This document shows, piece by piece, positions 12,555 to 63,569 of a stretch of DNA of 64,000 bases; position 1 is the stretch's first letter, and each line of letters begins with the position of its first letter. This stretch comes from Amphiura filiformis (taxonomy: Eukaryota; Echinodermata; Ophiuroidea; Amphilepidida; Amphiuridae). The notes under the pieces were generated by a model. The model did not search any database. It was not told the origin of the DNA and saw nothing but the letters and a program-made list of their open reading frames with translations. The stretch lies in assembly GCF_039555335.1 (NCBI RefSeq), contig NC_092642.1:18897151-18961150 (forward strand). Direction: 5' to 3'. Both the position numbers and the translations under genes were made by a program.

Positions 12555-15500
12555 CTGTTGATAGAAAGAAGAAATGGGTTTGTGTTAAAGAGGTGGCAAT
12601 TTGTTTATTAATCAAGGGGACAATCAGAGACTTAAAAGGGCATTTTGTGATCCACAGCATCATCCTCCACTTTTCTCAAAAAAGTTGAGATTTTTATATC
12701 ACTGAAACCTCTGGCTAGATAATGTTTATGTACAAAACATTTCCTGCAGATTAATTTGTTTGGCAAAGATATCGTGAGATTTGAATTGTCAATGGAGCAG
12801 TGTAATACACATAATCATACATAACTCACAAACGCAAAATCGGAATCAAATGAAATTTTGGGAATAAGCTTTTTTCGTGCATATCTACAGAAAAATGTCA
12901 TAAAAAGAGAATGCTAGGATCACGAAATACTCCTAAGTACAAAATGTTTACGTAACTATCCAGATTATTAACAAGCATATGCCAAGTTTATCATCACAGT
13001 TCATGCTTGATTATTTAATGATACATAACAGGAAAAAAAGTGTCAATCCCAGCTCAGACTCCTCAAATTCTTATATTAGCCATGGATTCCTAATTATGAT
13101 CAGGCCAAAATTCAGCACACCAGGAAATATATTTCAATTTCTGCTTCCTGATACGCACCTGCAAACAACATCTATTCAAATAGACCTGATGTTTTAATTA
13201 GCACACTGTTTTACCATGTTTGACTTCATACTGGATGATGAACAACATCCATTTCATAAACAAATTAATGATTATATATGGCACCTCCGACCTTCCCCAC
13301 TCAAAGCATGTTAGGATCAAGGAGTTCATTTTGAATATACTCCAATCGCCTTCAAGGATATGCATATAACCAGAGAAGATGTAATAAAGAGGAGGGTCAA
13401 CGGAATTATATCCTTGAGATAATCCCGTAGGTAATCCAGTCACATCTATTCATAGTCCTTTATTCTCAAGTAGTTAGACATCCACTTGAAATATCCTATG
13501 ATGTTATGTGTGTGACCGCCCATGGTTGACCAATTTTCACTCAGAATTGAAAATATTTCCCATGTTTCTATAAAGAATTTGTTAAAAAGTATGAAACGTG
13601 TGTGTTAAGGACCTGCTGCTTGGATGGGATACCACATGTGGGTAATACAAGAAAGAAATCGAGTGCTGTAAAATTTCCCCCAAATCCACCTTTTTTGTAA
13701 ATATATAAATTTCTAAAGAAGAAATTTTTAGGATTTTTTAGAGAAGTGATGATTGTTGATCATTTCTATTTTATTATTTTATATATTTTCCTGTCATTTC
13801 CTGCCAACCTAATAAAGATATTCTGATAATTGATAACATTCTTTATCTTAAATAATAGAGTCTGAAAGTGGCAACAAGTAGCAAAAATTATAATTTGCCA
13901 TAGAACTTCAGTCATATTTTATCTGAAATCTGACAAGATGACAGGGTCTGTATGCATGCTGTGTATAGCATGATGACATGCACACACTGACCTATCCCTA
14001 AAAGCAGTTAGCTGCAACTTGTGTATCACACCCATCCCGGGTTCAAACCCTATTGTGGTATTCTATTGTTAAGCAGCTAAATAGGGTGATTCATCATTTA
14101 CTTTGAGTGTGACGGTCTCACATATTTTGTTTGAGGATAGCTTGATCAACCTCCTCTTTATTACATCTTCTCTGATATAACTTACGATTGATACGTCCAT
14201 GGGCTCTGTATGTCCTTCTCCTCATTTTGGGGGCTGCGTTGACCTGAATGTGATCAATCACCAAGGAATCTACATCAAGACCCTGTATAGAAAACACATC
14301 ATATCATGTTATTAATAAATGATACTAGAAAAGGTTCGATTAGATCAACTATGAAACTCAATTTGATTTTTATGATTAGGTACGGTCCGTACGGACATTT
14401 AATGTCTTAAACTAAAAAAGGTATTGGTTTAACATTAAGGGGGGTACCACACTCCTGTAGTTGTAGTCCTTGCCCCTATAATATACATATCTTACTTGTC
14501 ACCAATGTGCTATAATTTTTGAGAAAAATGCAAAAATAGGCACAAAATTGGGCAGGGGTGTAGTACCCCCTTAAACATTGTGTGGATTCCGTGTTCACCT
14601 GCCAATCATGTGGATAATGATTAATGTAATTGTAATTATCATTTCAGTTAAGCGATAGCCTTGGTAGTCAGTCAGATCTGCAAGGTGATTTACTCACGTT
14701 TTAGTGACATTTCACCACTTCACTAGTGGTTTCATCTGACTGACCAGTCCAATGAAACCACTAGTGTAGTGGAGAAACATCACTAAAACGTGAGTAAATC
14801 ACCTTCGTTTTTTAGTTGGAATTGTTTAAAACGAACAAAAAAATACAACTGTTTCATCAACTTTCCTAATGAACTTGTTCAAGGATTTAAGCCATTCTCA
14901 ACACCCAAAGTCACGGTGCATAGCACATTGCATTGTATGTTTGTGTGGTCAAGTTTTGAATTTTCAGTTGTTGAACTGCAATGTCATGCAAATATTAGTC
15001 GGTAAGAAAATTTGATATATAGTATCCACTATCTGGCAGACTGGCACAAAGCTCTTTTGTTGCTCTATCGACTGACTCGGACTAGTTTCGAAATAACATC
15101 AAGCACTGAGGCCCTTGGTGATATCTTATTTTGCAGCACGGATTAAGCACTTTTTGAATAATGACAAAGTTTCTTAGAGAAAATACAAATACTTTGCTTT
15201 ATTCATTTTGAGTTGAACACCATGCATGGTCATTCTGCTTCCTTATTCCCAGATTGGCACACACAGGAAACTGACAGATGCAAACAGGCCCATGTCTCTT
15301 TTACTAGGACTGTGGGACAGTGTTAGCCTAACTGCCTTAGAGGTGGCTTACCTGATTGACAGCCTGATCACCCACTTTACCTCATCAAAATGCATATTTT
15401 GGTATCAGGTGAAAGCTCATATAATTTTTCTCATTACCTTGAATTCAGGCGTTCTAAATCAGTATATTTCTGAAGAAATCATCACAAAACTGGCAGATAG

Positions 15501-18500
15501 ATTAGTCTCGACACAGTCGACTGTGGCATACCATGTTTGAGATCAGACTAATTCAACAGTTTTTTGATGATACCTTTGGAAATACACCAATTTGGAACTT
15601 CAATATTTTAATGAGAAAAATAGGATTTTGGTATCAGGTAAAAACTCATATTTTTCTCATTTACCATATTGAATTCAGGCGTTCCAAATCAGTATCTTTT
15701 AGAAGAAATCATCACAAAACTGTCAGATTAGTCTCGACTGTGGTATACTAATTCAACAATTTTTGATGATATCTTTGGAAATACAGATTTGGAACTTTAA
15801 TATTTTAATGAGAAAAATTGGGTCTTTCATTTGATAACAATATATGATCATGAGGATTATCATTTTAAAAACACTGTAGACTACCAGTACCAGTATGAGT
15901 ATCAAGCTGTATAAATGTCAGTAATTGCCCAAGGCATTAGTCATATTTACAAGAAACATTTACCGTATTCATTCCAATAAGCGCCAGGGCGCTTAACAAA
16001 ATCATTTTGAGTGGGCGCTTATTTTTTACATGGTTTACCTAATTTTTCCGTAAGGGCGTTTATTAGAGACAAATTGGCGTAGGTTATAAAAGGGTCCAGA
16101 GACATTCTAGTAGCTTTTCTGATGCAGAAAATGTATTGCAAGTTTACACAGGACTTGTAGTCCTCCAGCTATTTCACTGTATCGATGTCTATCTATCACT
16201 TCAACATTAATGGTACCCTTTAGTAAATTGAAAATACCCTGGGTGGGCGCTTATTGGGGCATGGGCGCTTATTGGAATGAATACGGTACATGTTCTTTTT
16301 CGCATGAATGCTCCAAAGAGACAACATTTTATGTTATACTTAGGTTTTCAAAATTAGATTTTCCAAATATATGGGGTCACCTTCCCTTAAATCATACATG
16401 ATACAATTAACTACACCAGAGAAACACACAAATTGTTTCATGTTGTTTATAATCACCTTGTACTCAGCGTTGCTTTCAGCATTTTTGAGGAGTTGCAGCA
16501 GAAACTCGGCACTCTTCTTTGGCCAGCGACCTTGTGTGTGACCCCATGCTTTAGCCTGTAAGAAGGATACAACAGAATATGAAGGACTGAGGTTCAAAGT
16601 CAAGTTTGGGGCATGAAAACTTTCCTGGGAAGACTTAAAACAATTGCATGGGGCAAATCATTACAATGTACCAATTGTACATAATGGCATCTTAAATAAA
16701 AAAACCTTTGAAGCGAATTTGAGTGATTTAGTACAGATACACATTTTTATCAACTGATATTGTTGCAATTATCTCTGCTGTATGAGATGTCCACATTCTA
16801 ATGCTTTTTATAACAGATTTCCCCCAATTTAGTTAGACGAGGCATTGTTGGTCCAAGCAACCTAAAATTGATTTTCAATCTAGATCAATATATTATTGAA
16901 AATTAACACCTTGATGTTTTGCAAAAGTTCATTCTACAAATCGTATATTTTGCAAACTTGCTTAATTTATTGTTGTTCCGTTTTACAAAAGTGTTGTTGT
17001 TTCAGCCCTCTTTAAAACGTAACTCAAGAACCGCAGCACCTTTAAAAGTATATCTGTCATATTTGAATTCTTCTACACGCTCGCTATGAATTGAGCAATG
17101 CAGTTTTTGCTATAGCTCACTACCATTCATAATATGCTGTGAACTACCAAATCACAACCGTTTAAAATAATTAATAACCTTAAGGTGGTACTACACCCCC
17201 TGATAAAATTGTGACAAATTTTGCATTTTTCTCAAAAAATAACTACACACTGGTAATATTAAGTTGTGTATATTATTCAAGGAAATTTCAGTCAATTCAA
17301 GAGAAGTGACCATTCTAGCGCTACCTCTTTTCTTATCATAAATAACATACCACTTGTCTTCAGTCACTGAAATTCCAGTGTGAATAACTGGATTCCTTGC
17401 CCCTATACATAACTTTTGTTACCAGTGTGTGTTATTATTTTTTGAGAAAAATGCAAAAATAGTCAAATTTTTCAAGGGGTGTAGTACCACCTTAAGCTAA
17501 CCCGACTACATTTTTCACACAGACTTGACTTACCTGTGCTTTGCGGCCTACACCACCATTGAATCTTCTGAAAGGGACACACTGCTTCTTTACAATTACA
17601 TCGTTAAGGAAGCGTACAGCCTTGCGGATATGCATGCGCTTCAAGCACTTGGCTGTTTCACGAGTGTTCTAAAATGAAATGGTAAAAAACATTTATTAAT
17701 ATTATCAGCTTTTAATGTTAGTCTCCACGGCAGCCAGTTTGGTTCTGATCCCTCCACACAAACAGTCTGCCAATGGCCACTTATACCGCCGTTTCTGATT
17801 GGCTACGCGCATGTAGCTGTAGAGCTGTACATACGGGAACTTGATTGACCTCAGTCAGTGTGGCGAGATGGCGGGTCAAAATTGCTCATGAATAATTAAG
17901 TAGCCGTCTAGCCGATCGGCGAATTGAAAGCTTTGTTTGACGCCAAGCGGATGGCGTCGTCAGAAAACCGTTAGCCAATCAAAAAGGACCAGTTCGTCAT
18001 CATTGGCAGACTGTTTGTGTGGAGGGAGCGTACCCAAACTGGCTGCGAAGGAGACTACTTTTAAAGTGTGTGATATTGTGTAACATCACATACCTAAGTA
18101 CCAATAAGATTGCAGGTATTTTTTAAGTATTTAAACATGTAGATTCTAATACTAATCCTTGATGAATTAAGCAAGGAAAACATTGGAACAGTAGGGATCA
18201 GGCTTCCCGTTAGTGTGCGTCATTAAATCCAGGCAGCGTATTTTACAAATTTGGACGCAAATTCACATGGCTAATCAAGTATTTTGCGTCCATGTCACAT
18301 GCATTTGGACGCAGACAAAACTTCGAAATTTTATCATTAATTGATGATAAAAATAAGAAATTTTTATTCTTTTATATTTTAAGATAATAAAAGCCCCAAA
18401 ATTTTGACCCACCTGCTGAGAATTGAAGTAAATTCTGCAATATTTGTAAATGCAAGCGTCAGAAATCGTGCACTTTTTGCATGCTTTCGAGCGATCGCTA

Positions 18501-26941: not shown

Positions 26942-27597
26942 GGGCTGGGGTATGAACGTTTGGACAGTATTTATTTTGGGACATCAGAGCACATCAGACA
27001 TATCGAATTGCATTCTGAATACGAAGAATGTCATTCTGATATCAAATAATTTTGATTTTTGAAATTCGCAATTTAATACACATTTTATGGCAAATCATTA
27101 AAATTGATATTTTTGATATTTAACAGTACTTGAAGTAAACTTTATAAATCTGATGATTTATACTTAAAGTGTATGTAGGTGGGATGAAAAAGCCGACGAT
27201 CAATTGAAAATTTTGACCTTTCGTATTGAAGATATGGATTTTTTTCCCAAAACACCAAAAAAATTAGGTCTTTTTGGGAAAAAATCCATATCTTCAATAT
27301 GAAAGGTCAAAATTTTCAATTGACCGTCGGCTTTTCCTCCCTGCTACATACACTTTAAGAATATATCATTAGATTTATATAATTTACTTCGGGACTGTTA
27401 TATATCAAAAATTTGAAAAATATCAAATTTTATAATTTGTCATAAAATTTGTATTATATTGTGATTTTCAAAAATGAAAATTATTTGATATCAGAAAGAC
27501 ATGCTTCGTATTCAGAATGCAATTCGATAGGTCCGAGGTGCTCTCATGTCCCATAAAAAATACTGTCGAAACGCAATAAACGCTCATTTTAGATCCC
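26942..27597. mobile_element. Fully palindromic 656-bp MITE with TTAA target
   Basis: TTAA at 26938-26941 and 27598-27601. The two halves are reverse complements almost throughout, with a centre near 27255: GGTCAAAATTTTCAATTG and CAATTGAAAATTTTGACC flank AAAAAATCCATATCTTCAAT-type motifs. A single strand would fold into a hairpin of about 300 bp. Degenerate copy at 10435-10815. Confidence 0.85.
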
Positions 27598-27945: not shown

Positions 27946-27949
27946 TTAA

Positions 27950-28293
27950 GGGGGTACTACACCCCTGCCCACGTTTGTGCCTGTTTTTGCATTTTTCTCA
28001 AAAATTATAGCGCATTGGTGACAAGTAAGATATGTATATTATAGGGGCAAGGACTACAACTACTGCACTGGAAATTTTATTTCAGCACAGACAGCAGTTG
28101 TGGAGTTACAGTCAAAAATGAGGGAAAACCAATATTTGATCAATAACTACTTGCCTTGAGTTGCTGAATTTTCAGTGCAGTAGTTGTAGTCATTGCCCCT
28201 ATAATATATATATCTTACATGTCACCAATGCGCTATAATTTGTAAGAAAAATGCAAAAATAGACACAAAATTGGCCAGGGGTGCAGTACCCCG
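27950..28293. mobile_element. TTAA MITE (GGGGGTACTACACCCC family), long copy
   Basis: TTAA at 27946-27949 and 28294-28297. Ends GGGGGTACTACACCCCTG / GGGGTGCAGTACCCCG; long inner mirror including TTATAGGGGCAA and GCCCCTATAA. Confidence 0.8.
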
Positions 28294-28544
28294 TTAACAA
28301 TCAAAAAAATTTTTTACCTAATTTTACAGCACAAAATAGGCAAAACTTTTTTTTTTCTTCAAAATGCGCCGAAATTTCAATTTTGAGGACTAATTGTTCA
28401 ACAAAAAAAGGGGGGGTTATACAGTGTAGGCTATACTGAAAAAAAATGTGGTCATTGGGTGTAGGAGTTGCCAAAAATAACGGGGTCTTTTCATGGGGAC
28501 ATGACGTATGTCACTGAATGTAGTTTTGCAGGCCATGCCGTGTC

Positions 28545-35850: not shown

Positions 35851-36219
35851 ATGATATCACTCTTTCAGTATTATCCTACCAGCTTGACTTGTATTTTCAC
35901 TTTCATAGTGATTGCATTAACTATATATTGGTGGAATAAGTATCAGCGAGAACCAAGTCGTCTACCTCCCGGCCCATTTTCATGGCCTATAGTTGGATCA
36001 CTGCCGTCTATTGCTGTTCAGTTATACCGCTCTGGTCTGCGACTACCGGCATTTTACAACAAATGGGTCGTCAATTTGGTCCGATTTTTACAGTGAATAT
36101 ATGCGGCGTTAATATTATTGTCTTAGGGGACTATGCAAGGATTAAAGAGGCGTTTCAACATCCAAACTTGAGTGACCGAGCAACGAATAACTTAGGAACC
36201 AAATATCTAGGTGGAGATG
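35851..36219 (+). CDS. P450 copy 1, exon 1
   Basis: Codes the anchor, the proline-rich hinge and, after a frame change at 36052-36055, FGPIFTVNICGVNIIVLGDY up to GGDG; donor GTAAGC. In the given frame translation ends shortly after, at 36096. Copy 2 is 95 percent or so alike and reads through. Confidence 0.85.
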
Positions 36220-39200: not shown

Positions 39201-42200
39201 AAACATCGTAATTGTGTACAAGTCTATATACTGCGCCAAAAAGTATCCTTACACTTGCACCACACAATTCTGCACATTTAACACTGTTTAATTATGACAC
39301 CCCATTGAATCCAATGCAGTCTCGAGAAGTAAAGCATTTGATTCGAGGAAGGTACAGTTTTAATAGTGACAAACTGGTCTATGTGATCGGAGCATGCGAC
39401 AACGATGCACAGCCGTTATGGACAACACCGGTGTGGTCACACAACATATTGATGGATCAAAAGAACTTGAACAAAGGGAACTAAAGAAAACCGAAACAAA
39501 ATAACTGAAAAATAAAATAATAGTTGTGAAAAGTACAGAAGAGAAGAAAAAAAACTGAAATAAAAACTTACTGCTTTTTAAAGCAGTAAGTTTTTATTTC
39601 ATTTTTTAAATAAAGCTTGGCTGGAGAAACTGGATTTGTTGCGTTTTTTGGAATCTTTTCGCCTTGTATAAGCCAGTTTGTCACTTCTAAAACTGGACCT
39701 TCTTCCAATCAAATGCTTGTACAGGATTAGAAAGTGCATTTAAAATAGTTTTAAAAGTGGGATTGTGTTTCCAAGTGCATATTGGGATACTTATTGGCGC
39801 AGTATATATTATGTAAAATAATGTTTCCACTAATTAATGTATCTCGTCTATTACAGGTATTGGTGGTTCGTCTGGAGAAATTTGGAAGCGACAACGTAAA
39901 TTCACACACACTACATTTCGTAATCTCGGTCTTGGCAAATCTTCCTTTGAGTCCATTATGATCACTGAATGCCAGGAACTCGCCAAAGAAATCACACGTC
40001 ATGGCAACGATCCCTTCAGTCCCCAGATACTATTTCCAAATGCATCAGCTAATGTGATTTGCTCGTTTGCATTTGGAAGGCGCTACGAGTACACGGATGT
40101 CGAGTTTCAATTTTTACTGAATTCTATCGACAAGATTGAACAACGCATACGAGAAGTAGCTGCTTTACCACTTCTCTTACCGATTTTCCAATATATACCC
40201 ACAAGAAGAAGACACCAGTTAGGCAACGACCTGACAGCACTTGCACAATTCGTAGATAAAATAGTCGAAGAACACAAAGTCAATTTCGACCCAGAAAATC
40301 CTCAAGATTACATTGATATATTCATGAAAGAAATCCAATCTTCAAGAGATGGTTTACTTACTTATGGGAATCTTCGAGGGACAGTTACTGGTCTGTTCTT
40401 TGCAGGTGCTGGTACAACATCAAACACAATGAGATGGGCTATTTACTGTATGCTAAAATATCCGGATGTACAAATGGCGGTGCAAGCAGAATTAGATGAA
40501 GTTATCGGTAACGAACGCATGCCTATCATGTCAGACAAGGACTCTCTTCCGTTCACCATGGCCACTATTCTAGAGATCCATAGATTCGGAAGTACCGCAC
40601 GATTTGCACCCATGCACGTAGCATCGTGTGATGTTGAACTATGTGGGTATCATATACCTAAAGGATCTTATTTGCTGGCCAGCCTATGGACCGTGCATCA
40701 TGATCCGAATATATGGACTGATCCAGAAGAATTCAAGCCAGAGAGATTCCTAAATCGAGATGGGAAAGTGACACGACCAGCGGAGCTTATCCCATTTAGC
40801 ATTGGTAAATATATATAAAAAACAACATTGTAATATTCAATGTCTACAGGGTGTATCAAAACGATTGGTACCCATCAATATCCAGTGAGTATGGACAAGA
40901 CTGTTCCATCAAAATGCAGCGTAACTCCAACTTATTTGTAGATTTATAATTATAACAAACGACCATAAAACTATAATGTTATTGTAGCCATTTCCAGAGG
41001 ATCTAAAGTTGAATTTGGAAGAAGCAGGCGTTTCATTAGAAGACAAAGTTGATGGGTACTAATCATTTTGATACAGCCTGTATAAAGCAAAACATTACCT
41101 ATAATTTGTAACCAGTGGTTGACGGTCAGATATTTTACATACTATATTGTCTTCGAAAGTGTTTGACGTAAAATGTGAATTAGCATCTTGCATCGTTGAT
41201 CAGTGTTCTTTCAAACAATTATTTTACACCATATCCCGACACACCCCAATTAATATTTAGCCCAAGCGGGTTATGCAGACCCCTTCCAGACTAGTCTTGA
41301 TATTTTTCGAAAAAATATTCCATACTAAATGTCAAGTCTGTAATATTCGGGGTGGGTAATTACGTCACGATTCAATTGGCGGTATATAGCATCTCATTTG
41401 ACCTATTTCCGAGATGGGCTGGGCTGGACACGCCCGCACGCCGAGGGGTGTACTTTTGCTGTCGGGCCTGTAACTTTGTTAAAATACATGCCCGACTGGC
41501 GATTGGGGGGGGGGGCATTTTGACGCTCATAGTTGGCAATTAGCTTTAAAGGGCCAATTTTATGCGCTCTTCACGTAAACTAATTCTGTTCTACTTTTAC
41601 ACCATAAGCCCCTTCTCAAACATTTTCTAACCCCACACCACCCCTCTCATGTCTTAAAAAACAAGTCACGAGCAGGGCACACATCTAAATGGTTAACTGT
41701 AACATTTAACTGCTACGTGTATTCAAACTTTTAGACTATCTTTTTCGCATTGTAACATTATTTCCGGAAAAAAATCGGGCTTGTAAAATTTCTGTCGGGT
41801 GTGTAACTTTTTTAGATTTACACGCACAGTGGCTAGTGCCAAGAAAGTTAAGCTCCAACTCTGTTTACGGTCACTAGGGTTATGTTCCAGGGAGCACTAT
41901 TTGACGATAACGCAACTTTGCATTATAGTTCAATTACCATATCTCTCACTCTAGTGACCACTGACCCGACGCGACATATTGCCCTTATACACTCTCACCC
42001 ATTTGCATTCTATACTCTCCTCTGCAGGTCGTCGAGTATGTCCAGGGGAGTCCATAGCCAAGATACAGATCTTCATTTTCTTTACCAATCTGCTACATCG
42101 ATTTACTTTCATCTATCCCGATGGTGCCGAACCGTTACCAAGCGTCGATGGGGCACAGCCTATACCTGAATTTCTAGTTACAGCAATTCCTCGCTCCTGA
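35851..42200 (+). CDS. Cytochrome P450, CYP2 clan, copy 1 (three exons, one frameshift)
   Basis: P450s of this clan are ER-anchored heme monooxygenases of the CYP2 kind (steroids, fatty acids, xenobiotics); the substrate cannot be told here. Exons 35851-36219, 39857-40804 and 42028-42200, joined in phase 1, give about 496 residues, normal for the family. Visible parts: N-terminal membrane anchor (about residues 12-28), hinge RLPPGPFSWPIVGSLP, C-helix WKRQR (133-137), I-helix AGAGTTS (306-312), K-helix EIHR (363-366), PERF (418-421) and heme loop FSIGRRVCPG with Cys444. Two oddities: exon 1 has four T at 36052-36055 where copy 2 has five, which breaks the frame; and the I-helix has Gly where CYP2 enzymes have Glu or Asp. 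The start at 35851 gives a standard anchor; an upstream in-frame ATG at 35785 is possible. Functional or not depends on whether the deletion is real. Confidence 0.9.
36633..36993. mobile_element. TTAA MITE (GTAGACGAGG family) in P450 intron 1
   Basis: TTAA at 36629-36632 and 36994-36997; reverse orientation relative to 59991-60355. 361 bp, no coding capacity. Confidence 0.75.
36998..39856. other. P450 copy 1 intron 1, remainder
   Basis: No exon seen. 37370-37440 (CATGACCAAGTTAGTCAGAC) matches 58365-58420 and 38721-38790 (CCAAAATTCAGGTC, AGTCAAATCAT) matches 60583-60640, so the intron is part of the duplication. A 17-bp hairpin (ACTTACTGCTTTTTAAAGCA) lies at about 39566-39600. Confidence 0.5.
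39857..40804 (+). CDS. P450 copy 1, exon 2
   Basis: 948 bp open throughout, from the C-helix region to PFSIG; acceptor TTACAG, donor GTAAAT. Carries the C, I and K helices and PERF. One very large central exon is unlike the nine-exon vertebrate CYP2 genes and resembles intron-poor CYP2U-like layouts. Confidence 0.95.
40847..41080. mobile_element. TA-target MITE in P450 copy 1 intron 2
   Basis: Ends CAGGGTGTATCAAAACGATT / AATCATTTTGATACAGCCTG, TA on both sides. The orthologous copy is at 61781-61999, so it inserted before the duplication. Confidence 0.75.
42028..42200 (+). CDS. P450 copy 1, exon 3 (heme-binding)
   Basis: Acceptor CTCTGCAG, then RRVCPGESIAKIQIFIFFTN and the C-terminal strand to TAIPRS and TGA. 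Completes the FxxGxRxCxG signature begun in exon 2. Confidence 0.95.
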
Positions 42201-42255: not shown

Positions 42256-42773
42256 CCCAATATGCGCAAGTTATGTAAAGTCTGTACAAAAAGTATCTCA
42301 GCTGTTATAAACACGCCTATAGATTCAGAACAAATAATTGCTTTCACAATATTTCAACATAGAGAGAAGGATGATTTATTTACGCATTTTGATACCACAT
42401 TCGTCAAATGTCGTTCAATGTTAACAACACAGTAGTGCTTTTACAGAACATACCCGAATTTAAAAGTTGCAGTTTACAGCGATCAATGGTTATAATGCCA
42501 GCACTGTAAACACGTAAAGCCCGCCATTATCTTCGTGCTTACTTCAAATCACAAATAACGGCAACTTTTAAATTGGGGTATTTTTCTTTCCAAACACTGC
42601 TGTATTGTCAATATTGAACAAAATTGGACAAATGAGGTATCAAAATGCGCGTGAATAAATCATCCTTCTTTTTATGTTGAAATATTGTGAAAACAGTTAT
42701 TAGTTCTGAATCTATAGGCGTATATATAACAGCTGAGTTACTTTTTTGTGCAGACTTTACATATATTTTGGCT
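42256..42773. mobile_element. Palindromic 518-bp element just after the P450 copy 1 stop
   Basis: TATGTAAAGTCTG and CGCCTATAGATTCAGAAC on the left are mirrored on the right; inner ATAAATCATCCTTCT and AAGTTGC motifs also pair. It begins about 55 bp after the stop codon and so probably lies in the 3' UTR. Confidence 0.7.
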
Positions 42774-45720: not shown

Positions 45721-45857
45721 ATATTAGGTGAATACAATTTTTGAATATATCGCACTGCACTAAGTACGTTCACACGGTATCTCTGCACTGAACCATAGAT
45801 GTCAAGTCCTCGATCGTAGTTCTATAGAACATTCGTAACCACTCGCACCTGTAAATT

Positions 45858-45926
45858 CGTGTTCACACAGTCGGACATAGGTCACTTACTGGTAATAAGT
45901 CACTTATGCCCGACCGTGTGAACACG
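45858..45926. repeat. Short palindrome
   Basis: CGTGTTCACACAGTCGG / CCGACCGTGTGAACACG arms continue with AGTGACTTAT-type motifs; probably a small MITE. Confidence 0.6.
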
Positions 45927-45938
45927 ACTTAAGATTAG

Positions 45939-48643: not shown

Positions 48644-49101
48644 GCCTCGTATCCACACAGACAACAAACCGTAGCGGCCACTAAGCAAAACAAAGGTTCG
48701 TTGTCTGTGTGGCAGGTCACATGGGAAAAGGTGAACATGGATCAAGGGCACACGCCACAAGGGAACAGCCTATGGATACGAGGCCTAAGGAACCGTATCC
48801 ATAGGCTGTTCATTGTGGCGTGTGCCCTTGTTCCGTGTTCACTTGTTCCCATGTGACCTGCCACACAGACAACGAACCTTTGTTTTGCTTAGTGGCCGTA
48901 ACCACAGGCTCGTTCCCTTGTGGCGTGTGCCCTTGATCCATGTTCACCTTTTTCCCATGTGACCTGCCACACAGACAACGAACCTTTGTTTTGCTTAGTG
49001 GCCGCTACGGTTTGTTGTCTGTGTGGCAGGTCACATGGGAACAAGTGAACACGGAACAAGGGCACACGCCACAAGGGAACAGCCTATGGATATGAGGCCT
49101 T
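48644..49101. mobile_element. Foldback element of four nested copies of one unit
   Basis: One unit of about 100 bp (GTGTGGCAGGTCACATGGGA, GGGCACACGCCACAAGGGAA, CAGCCTATGGAT) occurs four times: plus near 48655-48785, minus 48794-48897, minus 48909-49013, plus 49013-49101. Outer ends GGCCTCGTATCCA / TGGATATGAGGCC are inverted. The first and third units pair over about 110 bp almost perfectly. It sits inside the 5' flank of the second P450 duplicate. Confidence 0.85.
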
Positions 49102-49177
49102 AGAGACAGAGGTTGGCTGATCTAGATTGACTGTGTTGTCAATAGAGGTTATCCGTGTTCTATAAGCTGCATATCCT

Positions 49178-50645: not shown

Positions 50646-50879
50646 AATTTTCTGCATTCAAACTTTAATTTCCTTTCTTTCTCCCCTTCTTTCTTTCTCT
50701 CTTTCTTTCTGACCTCCTTTCTTTCGTTTTTCTTTCTTTCTATCATAGGCCTACTTTCATTATTCCTTTCCTTTTTAGTTCTTTTTCTTTTCTTTATTTC
50801 TTTCTTCTCTTTTCATTTTCCTTCCTTGCTTTTTTCCTTTCTTTCATTCTTTCTTTCTTCCTTCCTTTCTTTCTCTCCT

Positions 50880-50951
<72 letters not shown>

Positions 50952-51240
50952 TTCTTCCTCTTTTTTTCTTTCTTTTTCTTTCGTTCTTTCTTTCTTTCTT
51001 TCTTTCTTTCTCTCTTTCTTTCTTTCTTTCTTATTTTCTTTCTTTCTTTCATAGGCCTACTTTCATTCTTTCCTTTCTTTTTTCCTTTCTTTATTTCTTT
51101 CTTCTCATTTCGTTTCCTTCCTTTCTTTCTTTCCTCCTTTCTTTTTTTTTTTTTTTCTTTTTCTCTTTCTTGTTCATTCTTTACTTTGTTCCTTTATTTT
51201 CATCAGTCTCTCTTCCTCTTTCTTTGCATTTCATTTAATA
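50646..51240 (+). repeat. Pyrimidine tract, (CTTT)n microsatellite
   Basis: About 600 bp almost purely C and T on the plus strand, with a long clean CTTT run at about 50877-50953. ATAGGCCTACTTTCATT occurs twice inside, suggesting a duplication of the tract. The 232-residue frame over it is a low-complexity artefact. Confidence 0.9.
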
Positions 51241-53835: not shown

Positions 53836-54111
53836 CAAAGAGTCAACTGCATTGAATGAGGGCATTTTGTTCTGGCAAAAGTGGAAGTCAATGGCATAGA
53901 GTAGCCTACAATACAAGGGGGCGTGGCTGTCACCGGTATACACATGGTATATACGTCAGTGTGCACGTATTGCACATGTTGGATGTGGCAGGTAGGAACT
54001 CACACGTATTAGAATGAGCTGTCGTGATCGAAGATCGTGATTTTACGGAATACTCCGTGTGTGCTTTTTTTTTTAAAGAACACAACCATTATACCAGAAA
54101 CTACGCCAACC
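53836..54111 (+). promoter_or_regulatory. Conserved 5' flank of P450 copy 2
   Basis: Counterpart of 35600-35850. The CAATACAAGGGGGCGTG box is at 53909-53925; a short duplicated stretch (ACACATGGTATATACG) is inserted before CAGTGTGCACGTAT. Confidence 0.45.
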
Positions 54112-54481
54112 ATGATATCACTCTTTCTGTATTATCCTACCAGCTTCACTTATATTTTTACTTTCATAGTGTTTGCATTAACTATATATTGGTGGAATAA
54201 GCATCAGCGAGAACCAAGTCGTCTACCTCCCGGCCCATTTTCATGGCCTATAGTTGGATCACTGCCGTCTATTGTTGTTCAGTTATACCGCTCTGGTCTG
54301 CGACTACCGGCATTTTTACAACAAATGGGTCGTCAATTTGGTCCGATTTTTACAGTGAATATATGCGGTGTTAATATTATTGTGTTAGGGGACTATGCAA
54401 GGATTAAAGAGGCGTTTCAACATCCAAACTTGAGTGACCGACCAACGAATAACTTAGGAACCAAATATGTAGGTGGAGATG
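54112..54481 (+). CDS. P450 copy 2, exon 1
   Basis: 123 codons plus one base, open, from MISLFLYYPTSFTYIF to KYVGGDG; donor GTAAGTAAG. Five T at the site where copy 1 has four. Confidence 0.93.
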
Positions 54482-57400
54482 GTAAGTAAGCGCATGACAA
54501 ATTTCAAATAAATTATATGTGAAAATATTTTTAGACATGTTTTTTTTAAAGAACGCCCGTCTAGCTAGTGCACGAGACACTGAGCTGAATGCGTGCCTAT
54601 TGAACTTGGAACTTGAGACAAACGTTATGATATTCACAGAGCTGACCGTAACTTAATTTTATTATAACCAGATCATAGATTGGATATAAAATATATAAAT
54701 ATTATAGATTGGGGAGGCTGGGAGACGCGTGAGTCGGGCCCGGGGGGAGGGGGTATGCGGAGATGTTGTTCTCGACCTGTTCTCGTCTTCTCGACATTGT
54801 TTAATGGGCTGTGGAGGGGTGCGACAATTCTAGGATATTGATCACATTGATGGGAGAAACATATATTCTATTTTATTTTTTCTTCGACCCTTTTTGACAC
54901 GAAAAAAACACCTTGGGTTGATTTTCAAATAAAAAAAGTGCGGAACAGCTGCTTTAAAAAGAGTTGTAGCTTGTAGGTTACGAGTACTGCACTCTATACT
55001 GATTTGAAATCATTTTGAAGCAACCAGTGTAAAATATCAATATCATACTTCAGATTTTTAAATTTTTAAATTAAAAAAAGATCATCTTTGACCGATGTTT
55101 GAACTACTTTTGTACAAACGTAATCGGACTTTTTGACCCCCTCCCTCCGTAACGAAATAGGACTTCATCGAACTTTTGGGTTGTTCCCTTGTATATAGGA
55201 CACTTTGTATAATCGGAAATATTCATGTAGTTTCATTGTATTTGAATCTACTTAGTGCTCATCATATGCATAGGTCGCCAGTATAAAATATGAGTCGAAT
55301 TTATAATCTTTCATGACATGCATGATATAGGGAAGTACTTGACCAGAAAGCTGAACTTTCGAAACTCGAGCGAGTGTCATCAGAGTATAAAGGGGAATAT
55401 TGGAATGTCATCTTTGCCTAGGAAAGATCTTACAGCAGTCCTCAGAGTCAGTTCCAATAATTGAAACTCCTGGCTCCGACCGGGAGTTCCAACAGGTACT
55501 GGGGGTGTGTTTGTATGTGTTTAATGTGCATTCACATACACACTTTAATAATAGCCGTCGGTACGAATAAATCGTTGCTCCAAAAATGACTGCAAATTAG
55601 GGAGTGTTCATAAATACTTTGGTAGGGGGGCTGGAAAATATGTAGGGGGTCATACAATTTTAGGAGTTCTGAAGAGGGGGGTTAAAACAGTTTTGGGTGT
55701 ATGAACAGGGGGGGGTTAAAAAGTTTTTGGGCACGTAGAGGGGGGGGTGTAAAAACTTTAGCAACATTAGTCCTGAAGCAATCATATAAAATAGCCTGAT
55801 GTTCTCCTACAACCAGAACAAAAGTTCATTCCAGATAAGGCCCTTCACAATTAATTCTTAGTTTCCTGTTTCATGGTTGAAAACAAGGGATGAGGCAACT
55901 TTTAATTATTAATTATTAATTATCTTTTATTTTCTTTATTTTAAAATAAGTAGTCGCAACCTACATCAACCCGTTTCAACAAGGGACAAGCATTTAATTA
56001 TTTTACAACTATGTTTGATTTTATACATAAGTAATGGTACAGTTATGTTCTTTGTTTATTCATCATAATAGTTGATATGATCAAAGTCAGAAGGTAGCAA
56101 ATGGGAGTCATTTAAAGTTATTTTCAAAGAGAAAATCCAAAATATAAATAAAATAATTAAATATTTTGCAATTCTCTACTTTGGACGCGGGCGGGAAACA
56201 GGAAACTAAGAATCAATTGTAAAGGGCCTAAGGGCATTTGATCAGGTCCTTTATGTATTTTGAAAAGTCATTCAATATAAGTATGAAGTGTTAAAAATTG
56301 TCTTGTTGTCTATAACTTAATTTTGAGGCTTGTGTCAGTTCCTTCTGATCTGCTCTTTTAATCACCAAAAGACTGCAAAAACTTTGTTCTTCTTTAGTGT
56401 TGACAATTTTTACAATAATGTTTCATGCAGTACAGATTATTAATTTATTATCAACTAAATCATGTTGCTTTACAATTATAGGCGGAGGAATCTTGGAGAA
56501 CCGGGGTACACGTTTCCACCCCCTTGGGGGACATCCCCTAAAGATCCTAGTAGGAGAAAAAAAACCAATAACTGCCCTATGCAACTTTTTTAGCACATCG
56601 AAAAGCACCGTGTTTTGGGCCCAAATAGGCTAAAATTGCCCAATTTTGCGCTTCGCGATCACACGAACTGGCCCAGCAAATAGCAAAACACCCCATTTCG
56701 GCAGTAGCGTAGCCAGGGGGCAAGGGGGGAAAGTGCCCCATGACAAAGATGAATGAAAAATGAAAGATAAAATCTGGAGGGCAAAGGAAAAGAATAGTGG
56801 CAAGGAACCCCTTTTCCACCCAAATTCACCCTGATCATGGGCCAAAATAAAATACAAAACGTTTGCGCGCTGTATGCGCACTGTATGCGCACATTGTCAC
56901 AATAAAATAAAGGCATTTTCATCCCCATCATGGGCGAAAATAGTGTACAAATGAGGGGGGGGGGTCAAAATAGTTTTGAACCTAATATGAGGGGGGTCAA
57001 AAAAGTTTTAGGTCCATTAAGAGGGGGGGGGGCAAAAAAGTTTTGGGTTCGCGAAGAGGGGGTTAAAAATTTTCGACATGAAAAAAAAAATTTCCAGCCC
57101 CCCCCCCCCAAAGTAATTATTAACACTCCTTACACATTTGTAATCATTTTTCACCACAAAATATGATATGAAAACACAGGTGAGCAATGTATGAATATAT
57201 GGAGAGGTCAAACAGGTTGGTAATTATTGTCAATATTAATATTTTGCGACATTTATAATGAAAACAATTAACACTGAAGACACCCTATGGCACCTTCTAC
57301 AACTTGAGAACAAATTTGTAGTTACTACAACTGCATCAGAGTAGGTTTCTTTCACCTTGAAGGCAAGTAATAAGGGCTAACTTTCCCCTAGGCCATCCAA

Positions 57401-60400: not shown

Positions 60401-61728
60401 AAGTTTTGTCTGCCAAACGAGGGGGTCAAAAAAGTTTGGCGGTCCATTAAAAGGGGGGGTCAAAAAGTTTTCGAGCGAAAAGTTGAGGTAAACCAGCCTC
60501 CCCCAACCAAAGTATTAATGAACACTCCCTTGGTAGTTGCTGGAAAACTTACAGCCTGAACTGCCAGGGTTGTGATGAGCCACCAAAATTCAGGTCAACT
60601 AGTCGAGTCAAATCATTTGGACTAAGAGACGGGACTATTTTGGGGGGGGGGGCTGGGTAGTTGGGGTCGTGAAAAAAATTAGCACCTCGGTGAAGCAAAA
60701 TTTTTTTTTTTTATTACTCCTCGGTGAGAATTTTTTTTAATTACAAAATTAACATACGTAACTACCTATCTCGTCTTTTACAGGTGTTGGTCTCTCGTCT
60801 GGAGACATTTGGAAGCGACAACGTAAATTTACACTCACTACATTTCGTAATCTTGGTCTTGGCAAAGCTTCCTTTGAGTCCATTATGATCACTGAATGTC
60901 AGGAACTCGCCAAAGAAATCACACGTCATGTCAATGATGCCTTCAGTCCCCAGATACTATTTCCAAATGCATCAGCTAATGTGATTTGCTCGTTTGCATT
61001 TGGAAGACGCTACGAGTACACGGATGTCGAGTTTCAATTTTTACTGAATTCTATCGATAAGATAGATCAACGCATACGAGAAGTAGGTGGTTTACAACTT
61101 TTATTACCGATTTTCAAATATATACCCACTAGAAGAAGACAGCAATTAGGCAAAGATCTGACAGAACTAGCACAATTCGTAGATAAGATAGTCGAAGAAC
61201 ACAAAGTCAATTTTGACCCAGAAAATCCTAAAGATTACATCGATATATTCATGAAAGAAATCCAATCTTCTGGAGGTTTACTTACTTATGGGAATCTTCG
61301 AGGGACAGTTACTGGTCTGTTCTTTGCAGGTGCTGGTACAACATCAAACACAATGAGATGGGCTATTTATTGTATGTTAAAATACCCGGATGTACAAATG
61401 GCGGTGCAAGCAGAATTAGATGAAGTTATCGGTCACGAACGCATGCCTATCATGTCAGACAAGGACTCTCTTCCGTTCACCATGACCACTATTCTAGAGA
61501 TCCATAGATTCGGAAGTACCGCACGATTTGGACCCATGCACGTAGCATCGTGTGATGTTGAACTATGTGGGTATCATATACCTAAAGGATCTTATTTGTT
61601 GTCCAGCCTATGGGCCGTGCATCATGATCCGAATATATGGACTGATCCAGAAGAATTCAAACCAGAAAGATTCCTAAATCGAGATGGGAAAGTGACACGA
61701 CCAGCGGAGCATATTCCATTCAGCATTG
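54112..61728 (+). CDS. Cytochrome P450, CYP2 clan, copy 2 (exons 1 and 2; partial at window edge)
   Basis: Tandem paralogue of the gene at 35851. Exons 54112-54481 and 60784-61728 are both open and join in phase 1, giving 438 residues up to PFSIG. It has the anchor, RLPPGPFSWPIVGSLP, WKRQR, the same I-helix AGAGTTS with Gly in place of the acidic residue, EIHR and PERF. It is one residue shorter than copy 1 (SSGG for SSRDG). The heme exon is not in the window: intron sequence homologous to copy 1 runs to about 63780 and predicts exon 3 some 600 bp or more further on. Intron 1 has grown from 3.6 to 6.3 kb through insertions. Likely the working copy if the copy 1 deletion is real. Same reaction class as copy 1; substrate unknown. 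Confidence 0.9.
55600..57129. mobile_element. PIF/Harbinger-type element in P450 copy 2 intron 1
   Basis: TTA at 55597-55599 and 57130-57132; ends GGGAGTGTTCATAAATACTT / TAATTATTAACACTCC. Long G-rich subterminal arrays (GGGGGGTCAAAAAAGTTTT type). 1530 bp; a further insertion with GCGTAGCCAGGGGGCAAGG lies inside near 56707. Confidence 0.75.
57133..58429. other. P450 copy 2 intron 1, middle
   Basis: No exon seen. 58320-58420 matches 37350-37440 of the copy 1 intron. 57808-57861 is A/C homopolymer-rich, so the frame over it is not a gene. Confidence 0.4.
58430..58700 (-). mobile_element. TTAA MITE (GTAGACGAGG family), shortened copy
   Basis: Contains GTTCACAGCATCTTGC, AGAATGAACTTTTGCAAAAC and GACCAATACCTCGT in the same order as 36633-36993, with an internal deletion and no clear TTAA ends. 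Confidence 0.6.
58723..59309. mobile_element. PIF/Harbinger-type MITE (GGGGTGGTGCAATAA ends)
   Basis: TTA at 58720-58722 and 59310-59312; ends GGGGTGGTGCAATAAATGTG / TAATTATTGCACAACCCC. G-rich subterminal repeats of AAAGGGGGGCAAGCGATTTT. Confidence 0.8.
59313..60529. mobile_element. PIF/Harbinger-type element abutting the previous one
   Basis: Starts GGGAGTGTTCGTTAATACTT directly after the TTA that closes 58723-59309 and ends AAGTATTAATGAACACTCCC at 60529. Its right target site has decayed to TTG. A TTAA MITE (59991-60355) is nested inside. Confidence 0.75.
59991..60355. mobile_element. TTAA MITE (GTAGACGAGG family), intact copy
   Basis: TTAA at 59987-59990 and 60356-60359; GGGTAGACGAGGTACTGTTG at the left, AATAATTAATAACC at the right. 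Confidence 0.75.
60784..61728 (+). CDS. P450 copy 2, exon 2
   Basis: 945 bp open, acceptor TTTTACAG, donor GTAAAT. Differences from copy 1 are mostly conservative; I-helix, K-helix and PERF motifs are unchanged. Confidence 0.95.
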
Positions 61729-61780
61729 GTAAATATATATTAAAACAACTTTTGTAATGTTCTGTAATGTTCTATATCTA

Positions 61781-61999
61781 CAAGGTGTATCAAAATAATT
61801 GGACACATGATATCCAGTGAGTATGGGCAAGACTAGCTGTTCCATCAAAATGCAGGTTATTATAGATTTATGTAACAAAAGGACATAAAATTATAAATTT
61901 TAACCGTTCAAGAGGATCTAAAGTTGAATTTGGAAGAAGCTAGCAGGCATTTCATTAGAAGACAAAGCTTATGGGTACTAATCATTTTGATACAGCCTG
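61781..61999. mobile_element. TA-target MITE in P450 copy 2 intron 2
   Basis: Counterpart of 40847-41080 at the same intron position, with one changed base in the left end (CAAGGTG). Confidence 0.75.
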
Positions 62000-62029
62000 T
62001 ATAAAGCAAAAGACATTTTCTGTTATTTT

Positions 62030-62640
62030 GGTCTATTGCCATTTGGTCTAATACCATTTTGTCTAATTCCCGTTTAGTCTAAATTCAATTGGTCTATTAT
62101 CAGAAAGGCTAATTGCCACTTTAGTCCAATAATTATATAGTCTAATGTCCATTTAGTCTAATATTGTTTGGTCTAATAACCCGTATGTCTACTAACCATA
62201 TAGTCTAATAACCATTTGGTCTAATATTTCTTTAATAACCATTTGGTCTAATAACCATTTGGTCTATTAACCGTTAGGTCTAATACTCGTATGGTCTAAT
62301 AACCAGTTAGTCTAATACCATTTCGTCTATTTATTAATAAAGTAAATGCTTGTAAGACTAAATGGTGTGTAGACCAAATGGGTATTAGACCAAATGGCTA
62401 TTAGACCTATTGGTTATAGATCAAATGAGTATTAGACTAAATGGTTGTTAGACTAAATGGTTTTAGACTTATTGGTTATTAGACTAAATGGTTATCAGAC
62501 CAAATGTTTATCGGACCAAATGGATAAAGGACCAAATGATTGTTGGACGTAGTGGATATAGACCTAATGGGTTTAGACGAAATGGATGTAGACGAAATGG
62601 ATATTAGACCAAATGGTATTAGACCAAATGGCAAATCCCC
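62030..62640. mobile_element. Transposon-like inverted array of a 17-bp unit
   Basis: The left half repeats variants of TTTGGTCTAATAACCA about 17 times; the right half repeats the reverse complement (TGGTTATTAGACCAAA) about as often; they meet in a short AT-rich centre near 62335. The 8-bp direct repeat GTTATTTT flanks both sides (62022-62029 and 62641-62648), as after transposition. Terminal TTGCCATTTGGTCTAATACC is mirrored at the right. Lies in P450 copy 2 intron 2; absent from the copy 1 intron. No coding capacity. Confidence 0.85.
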
Positions 62641-62701
62641 GTTATTTTATTTATTTGTATGTACTGTACAGGGTGTCTAAAAACATTACCTATATCATGT
62701 A

Positions 62702-63562
62702 CAGGGTGAGTCAAAAAAAGTGCAATAGAGAAAAGAATCCATTTTTATTTAAGAATCGAGTTGAATCTTTTAGGTTTTAAAACATTTTATACATAACATA
62801 TCCATTAGAGATCATGTGTGAAAACATCAAGGAATTAGCATTTACCGTTTTGTTTTATGACACATTTTATAGCGATACCCAATTTTAATGTTTGTCCAAG
62901 AGACATCTAAAATTTGAATGTCAGCCCACTCTGTGTAAGGTAGATTTGGAACAACTGCCACTTTCTTAACCTCATTAGCATTGAAATAAAATGAAGCACC
63001 CAAAGTGTTATTGTCCTTGGTCTTGTTTAAGGAGAAGAAACATTATTTGATGTTATTTTCATTTTTCCTTTACTTTAACGATGTTTATTCTTTATCAAAA
63101 ACATATAAATTTGTAGGCGGGTTTTTCAAATGAAATGCGCGCAATTTGAAGTGGAATGAATTACAAAATATCAAGTAAGTTGGACATATTGGGGTTAAAA
63201 AAAACTGGAGTTGGAGTCGAGTGAGGTATGAAGGACTTTTTTAGAAAGTTTGTTTGAACAGAAAAAAAAGTAACGCAAAAATCAACCTTATTTAAGCAGT
63301 AAGTTTCAGAGCTGGTGCTTTTATCGTGCAGTGTGTGCTCTCATTCAAAATACATGGTACCTCGTGGACAAATAATGAAATTGGGTATCGCAGCAAAAGG
63401 ACTCACACAAATTAAACGGTAGTAGCGAGTCACGTCATTTTTTCACAGAAGGTGACTATTGAGTGTGGCATTTATAACAACTTTCAATAATGGGAAAGTT
63501 CAACTTAGTTTTTACATAAATATCGATTCTTTGCTCTATTGCACTTTTTTTGACTCACCCTG
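62702..63562. mobile_element. Young mariner-type MITE in P450 copy 2 intron 2
   Basis: Ends CAGGGTGAGTCAAAAAAAGT / ACTTTTTTTGACTCACCCTG, TA on both sides, followed inward by GCAATAGAG / CTCTATTGC. Sequence on either side rejoins copy 1 intron sequence (ACATTACCTATA, then ATTTGTA), so copy 1 is the empty site. Confidence 0.8.
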
Positions 63563-63569
63563 TATATGT

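Follow-up and report, generated by a model that had tools for sequence, protein, structure and literature searches.

The sea urchin TU elements are foldbacks whose outer domain holds 15-bp tandem repeats and whose duplications are 8 bp long. According to an excerpt of the Tetris paper (PMC4079207), foldbacks of sea urchins had been reported in 1983. In Aedes aegypti, 14 Mutator-like families with 8-9-bp duplications are described in the excerpted account, and 10 of the 12 Mutator-like families with long terminal inverted repeats (TIRs) hold subterminal tandem repeats of 9-15 bp (PMC5225508). One of these, Muta1, makes duplications of 8 or 9 bp and has 145-bp TIRs that comprise a 10-bp end motif and nine copies of a 12-bp repeat; the repeats are spaced by 3-4 bp, giving a period of 15-16 bp (PMC5225508). 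In the same excerpts, Muta1 is termed a type 2 foldback by its authors, over 300 non-autonomous derivatives are putatively assigned to it, and in yeast it mobilised natural copies that are non-autonomous (PMC5225508). In Muta5 an 8-bp terminal motif is followed by about nine tandem copies of a 15-bp repeat, and many non-autonomous derivatives in which the number of repeats varies are described in that account (PMC5225508).

The TIRs of Tm1, a Mutator/foldback family of root-knot nematodes, start with 7-bp ends that do not match each other, followed by 13-15-bp repeats in varying number; the flanking duplications are 9 bp long, as excerpted from its description (PMC3169594). MITE-like copies make up 30 of 39 in M. 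incognita and 12 of 22 in M. hapla; in the same excerpt these average 431 bp and carry no genes, and paralogous empty sites were found (PMC3169594). For Galileo of Drosophila, the THAP domain of the transposase is reported in the excerpted text to bind tandem repeats inside the long TIRs (PMC3688188).

The locus described here was found in Amphiura filiformis, in a 64-kb stretch of DNA that was analysed as a whole and is referred to below as the window. It is very probably a non-autonomous, gene-less foldback DNA transposon, whose terminal repeats are arrays of a 16-bp unit and which has no middle domain. Its features, and those of the genes around it, are as follows.

39838..41199, forward strand: paralogous P450 exon and colinear intron without the element, from BLAST and alignment
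60762..61728, forward strand: P450 exon preceding the element (60762-61754 gives Pfam PF00067, E 6.5e-79)
62022..62029, no strand: left 8-bp direct repeat GTTATTTT, a putative target site duplication, matching 62641-62648 exactly
62030-62640: whole element, 611 bp, two head-to-head arms forming a near-loopless hairpin
62030..62335, forward strand: left arm, 306 bp, 20 units (the end ones partial) of the 16-bp repeat, consensus TTTGGTCTAATAACCA
62036..62059, forward strand: outer 24 bp identical in both arms, left copy, TTGCCATTTGGTCTAATACCATTT; longest perfect arm-to-arm match, in register
62330..62341, no strand: 12-bp palindrome TTTATTAATAAA at the arm junction, read from the sequence
62336..62640, reverse strand: right arm, 305 bp, 20 units of the 16-bp repeat TTTGGTCTAATAACCA in the opposite orientation
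62611..62634, reverse strand: outer 24 bp identical in both arms, right copy; longest perfect arm-to-arm match, in register
62641..62648, no strand: right 8-bp direct repeat GTTATTTT, matching 62022-62029 exactly

The two arms join at the 12-bp palindrome TTTATTAATAAA without a spacer or loop domain. A first-pass annotation of this DNA had given the unit as 17 bp, which was a miscount: the unit spelled out there has 16 letters, and Tandem Repeats Finder returned a period of 16 for both the left array (18.8 copies, 62039-62329) and the right array (18.4 copies, 62343-62631), with some units being 15 bp long. The two opposed arrays that it described were found as stated, and its count of about 17 units in each direction was replaced by 20 per arm, with the partial outer and central units included, by wrap-around alignment to TTTGGTCTAATAACCA. 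In this alignment the units abut directly, are diverged and have no unique spacers; a CRISPR array was rejected on these grounds, and the CRISPR-like look once ascribed to the locus has no support. When TTTGGTCTAATAACCA was sought with up to three mismatches, 17 matches were obtained in the 64 kb, 16 of them inside the element, against a chance expectation of 1.40 for the whole window (100 shuffles, largest 6). Folded as a single DNA strand, 62022-62648 reached -143.2 kcal/mol, compared with -48.6 kcal/mol (sd 3.5) for 20 shuffled versions (z -27); together with the lengths of the arms, this bears out the hairpin of about 300 bp that had been proposed.

Of the marks of a MITE, among which is a high copy number, the element shows a length of 611 bp, inverted ends and no listed open frame of 80 codons within it; one copy is present in the 64-kb window. 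Like a foldback, it has long terminal inverted repeats composed of short tandem units (opposed arrays, period 16); foldbacks are also flanked by a target site duplication of fixed length, and on this one copy the duplication is exact at 8 bp. A search of the literature with the unit sequence as a text string returned papers that were judged unrelated by their titles and abstracts. Exact patterns from the element gave 0 matches in viral and prokaryotic contig collections, a result that is uninformative for an animal element, and Rfam gave 0 families at the gathering score over the whole window.

The 8-bp flanking direct repeat noted in the first-pass annotation is exact, abuts both ends of the element and extends no further than 8 bp. 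In random flanks of the same composition, an 8-mer common to 30 x 30 flanking bases occurred with a frequency of 0.021, and an 8-bp repeat within 2 bp of both ends with a frequency of 0.0015, although the latter figure flatters the result because the ends were partly picked using the 8-bp repeat. Each end consists of six outermost bases followed by the 24 bases that are identical between the arms; the next-longest perfect match from arm to arm is 18 bp and is out of register. The mirrored ends that had been claimed are thus borne out by the 24-bp match, which is presumed to be a conserved terminal recognition sequence, TTGCCATTTGGTCTAATACCATTT. The terminal six bases are GGTCTA on the left and GGGGAT on the right (other strand), so that only the two terminal Gs agree.

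The element sits in the intron that follows the P450 exon at 60762..61728. The open frame of this exon extends to 61757 and a GT donor was seen by eye at 61729. As the heme-binding exon of the other copy lies near 42027, the array would be intronic provided that this gene copy continues past the window. The neighbouring P450 gene is of animal type; among solved structures its best match is chain 5e58 (E 5.8e-52), which marks it as CYP2-like. The long middle exons of two tandem CYP2-like gene copies lie at 39838-40815 and 60762-61728, with first exons at 35968 and 54229. A heme-binding exon is visible near 42027, in the gene copy with its first exon at 35968; the first-exon frame at 35968 meets a stop in translation and the frame at 54028-54486 is open.

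The exon copy at 39838-40815 (PF00067, E 4.4e-79) was compared with its counterpart over 969 aligned bases, of which 94.6% are identical; in the intron next to it, identity is 90.9% over 265 aligned bases, with 46 gap columns. By BLAST, 60767-62028 matches 39840-41107 at 90.0% and is colinear with it, and 63575-63656 matches 41118-41199 at 92.7%. The paralogous intron is therefore colinear up to the left edge of the element and has no such array: between the colinear blocks the paralog has 10 bases, and the window copy has the foldback and a further element at about 62701-63568. The left alignment ends at 62028, inside the 8-bp repeat, and reaches base 41107 of the paralog, with five of seven aligned bases identical. 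At the right junction no counterpart in the paralog was found for the 31 bases at 62649-62679, and the 15 bases at 62680-62694, AAAACATTACCTATA, repeat 41089-41103 of the paralog exactly (score 30; best of 500 shuffles 26). The unmatched 31 bases and the 15-bp duplication imply more than one event at the right junction, and the site is not clean to the base. As read from these alignments, the paralogous site supports insertion; loss from the other copy could also explain the absence of the element there.

Other repeats lie close by. The further element at about 62701-63568, to the right of the foldback, has arms at 62696-62933 and 63329-63568 that are 72.6% complementary, and it is also absent from the paralogous intron. 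Its ends, CAGGGTGAGTCAAAAAAAGTGCAATAG, which we take to be mariner-like, each have a TA beside them by eye. To the left, a MITE-like stretch at 61779-62003 with ends TACAAGGTGTATCAAAAT and TATACAGGCTGTATCAAAAT has a counterpart within 40840-41083; being present in both P450 introns, it is older than the gene duplication, unlike the foldback. At least eight other nearly loopless palindromes were seen among the 25 entries listed for the window, at 26957-27573, 42272-42763, 27946-28297, 17179-17496, 48653-49103, 15545-15734, 14682-14805 and 45854-45930. Several of these eight look like hairpin MITEs, those at 17179 and 27946 have the common ends TTAAGG..GTACT.CACCCC, and 48653-49103 contains copies of about 106 bp, some in tandem and some inverted. 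Going by these eight other loci in 64 kb, loopless palindromes are thus common in the A. filiformis genome. Among the palindromes listed, the element at 62030 is the only one in which an array of short units was found.

In an end-to-end alignment the arms of the foldback are identical at 228 of 314 columns (72.6%). When each unit was paired with the unit of the same number in the other arm, units 2-19 were more alike than expected by chance (P 0.010 for identity and P 0.017 for shared variants, 20,000 permutations), and realignment of these units gave a similar result for the mirror register (P 0.015, 1,000 shuffles). The signal comes from the outer units. Units 2-10 in mirror register scored 59, compared with 42.5 (sd 5.7) for shuffled order (P 0.007), and the register was undetectable without units 2-4 (units 5-19, P 0.14; units 5-13, P 0.15). 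For the inner units 11-19, the true register paired no better than shuffled order (P 0.61), and the earlier statement that every unit can pair in several registers is in this respect a fair one. The outer part of the arms is thus ordered alike, and the inner part is without trace of a common order; the inner half lends no support to inverted duplication of a whole arm followed by even decay. In the right arm, units resemble their neighbours beyond chance (lag 1, P 0.007 for shared variants and 0.029 for identity), and in the left arm they do not (lag 1, P 0.53 and 0.94). Within the unit, GTCTA (columns 5-9) departs from the consensus in 17 of 200 cells and column 13 in 22 of 40. The unevenness over the 16 columns gives a chi-square of 69.4 (15 df), a value that overstates the effect as units are not independent, and gaps were scored as departures. 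This uneven conservation is no more than suggestive of a binding site, for which such a pattern would be expected.

The transposon reading rests on the 8-bp flanking repeat, the mirrored and conserved ends, and the colinear paralogous intron that lacks the element, and on these same grounds the mobile-element interpretation of the first-pass annotation is upheld. The equality of the arms (306 and 305 bp, 20 units each) also supports it, as do the mirror register of the outer units, the uneven conservation within the unit and the published parallels. Against it stand the single copy seen in the 64-kb window, the right junction, which is not clean, the paralogous target, which matches the duplication at only five of seven aligned bases, and the expectation that 30 x 30 flanking bases will share an 8-mer 2% of the time. 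The register that vanishes without units 2-4, the lack of a transposase family in the 10 open frames scanned and the chance that the paralog has lost the element also count against it. If the transposon reading is correct, a transposase made elsewhere in the genome would bind the outer ends, the repeated units would probably serve as extra transposase-binding sites, and the element would move by cut-and-paste with an 8-bp staggered cut. From what is generally known of such sequences, growth of the unit array within a terminal repeat may have been by slippage or unequal exchange, and loss of the interior of a larger element may have produced the palindrome, for example through abortive gap repair that joined the terminal repeats at the 12-bp palindrome, which is AT-rich.

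Between the arms 27% of columns differ (72.6% alike), and between the paralogous introns about 9% (about 91% alike). With the arms so much further apart than the introns, the copy most likely landed with its arms already diverged, provided that the paralog never had the element and that rates were similar. Only the ends of the element look constrained when the two arms are compared.

A different origin would be a local minisatellite that turned into a palindrome where it lay: it would have grown by slippage, and half of it would then have been flipped, or copied the other way round at a break, with no transposition. Freely turning-over arrays would show the absence of register seen in the inner units (P 0.61) and the resemblance between neighbours seen in the right arm (P 0.007 and 0.029), and the element is single in the 64 kb; however, such an origin fails to predict the exact 8-bp flanking repeat, the 24-bp match between the outer ends or the equal arms, the left arm lacks the similarity between neighbours (P 0.53 and 0.94), and the colinear paralogous intron holds no seed unit. 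We consider it improbable. It is much less probable still that this is a satellite-like hairpin kept for a role in the host, such as an intronic source of double-stranded RNA or a regulatory array. The position in a P450 intron and the stem of about 300 bp would suit such a role, but the arms mismatch at 27% of columns, nothing in the inner half points to selection for pairing, the paralogous gene does without the element, and palindromes are common in the window (eight other loci among the 25 entries listed). A further reading, also improbable, is a foldback family consisting of nothing but two equal-numbered arrays of a transposase-binding unit set back to back, in which an active process keeps the number of units equal and the transposase is not of the Mutator type. 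Conversion between the arms, or copying of a hairpin intermediate, could maintain such equality; the count of 20 + 20 units and the conservation confined to the ends are compatible with actively equalised arms and do not amount to a demonstration of them.

For the foldback transposon, the transposase that would move it is likeliest to be of the Mutator/Phantom type, to which we give about an even chance. The 8-bp target duplication lies within the 8-10 bp given for this type in the excerpted source (PMC5225508). Merlin is the next candidate, and it is possible, if rather unlikely, that an element of this same kind owes its movement to a Merlin-type transposase and not to one of Mutator type. 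Merlin elements are described in the excerpted account as having terminal 5'-GG, TIRs of 24-462 bp, duplications of 8 or 9 bp and, in some cases, internal tandem repeats (PMC8101967); here both ends begin with GG, the duplication has 8 bp and the arm lengths are 306 and 305 bp. GG ends and a length of 8 bp are weak marks, however, and it is for Mutator foldbacks, and not for Merlin, that the excerpted sources describe a TIR built as an array after a short end motif. Since GG ends with 8 bp fit both Mutator-type and Merlin elements, the ends do not decide the superfamily. After Merlin come P, hAT or another superfamily with 8-bp duplications. The window has 13 open frames of 120 codons or more; 10 of them were scanned against Pfam and no transposase family was found in these (three were P450 and seven gave nothing). 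The other three fall within a CTTT repeat. At 50673-51199 there is a CTTT-type microsatellite with about 129 units and 73% matches.

With this element the foldback class gains a compact case that has no loop, and the paralogous intron without it serves as an internal test that supports insertion. The arms diverge by 27% and the introns by about 9%, a contrast which suggests that a foldback may be mobile even when its arms already match poorly. Movement with diverged arms would mean that perfect pairing of the hairpin is not required, and suggests that the ends are what counts. The picture of how foldbacks are built is unchanged by this element. Its body had been called unusual in the first-pass annotation, a description at odds with the published array-built foldbacks, which in the excerpted accounts of Tm1, Muta1 and Muta5 include short, gene-less MITE-like forms. 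Judged by analogy of anatomy, the array-built foldback architecture is one already known from Tm1 and Muta1.

The likeness to Tm1 lies in TIRs of short units and in outermost bases that are not mirrored; as excerpted, Tm1 differs in its 9-bp duplications, its different unit and its 7-bp asymmetric ends, and the repeat numbers of Tm1 differ between its two ends, whereas 20 units are present in both arms here (PMC3169594). With Muta1 and Muta5 the element shares duplications in the range of 8-9 bp and a short terminal motif before the tandem units, but in the excerpted account their TIRs of 145-151 bp flank a transposase gene or filler, whereas the arms here are about 305 bp with no middle; the likeness noted is one of anatomy (PMC5225508). 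Galileo and Tetris have in common with it a foldback anatomy and tandem repeats inside long TIRs; in the excerpts seen of their descriptions, the units of Tetris are about 220 bp, and Galileo belongs to the P superfamily and has TIRs of over 1 kb (PMC3688188; PMC4079207). The terminal GG, the 8-9-bp duplications and the internal tandem repeats of some families recall Merlin, although a TIR made wholly of tandem units is not described for Merlin in the excerpted account (PMC8101967). The sea urchin TU elements are very close to the element described here in unit length, array-built outer domain and 8-bp duplication, and may be closer to it still than Tm1 or Muta1; unlike it, they carry an inner domain and a middle.
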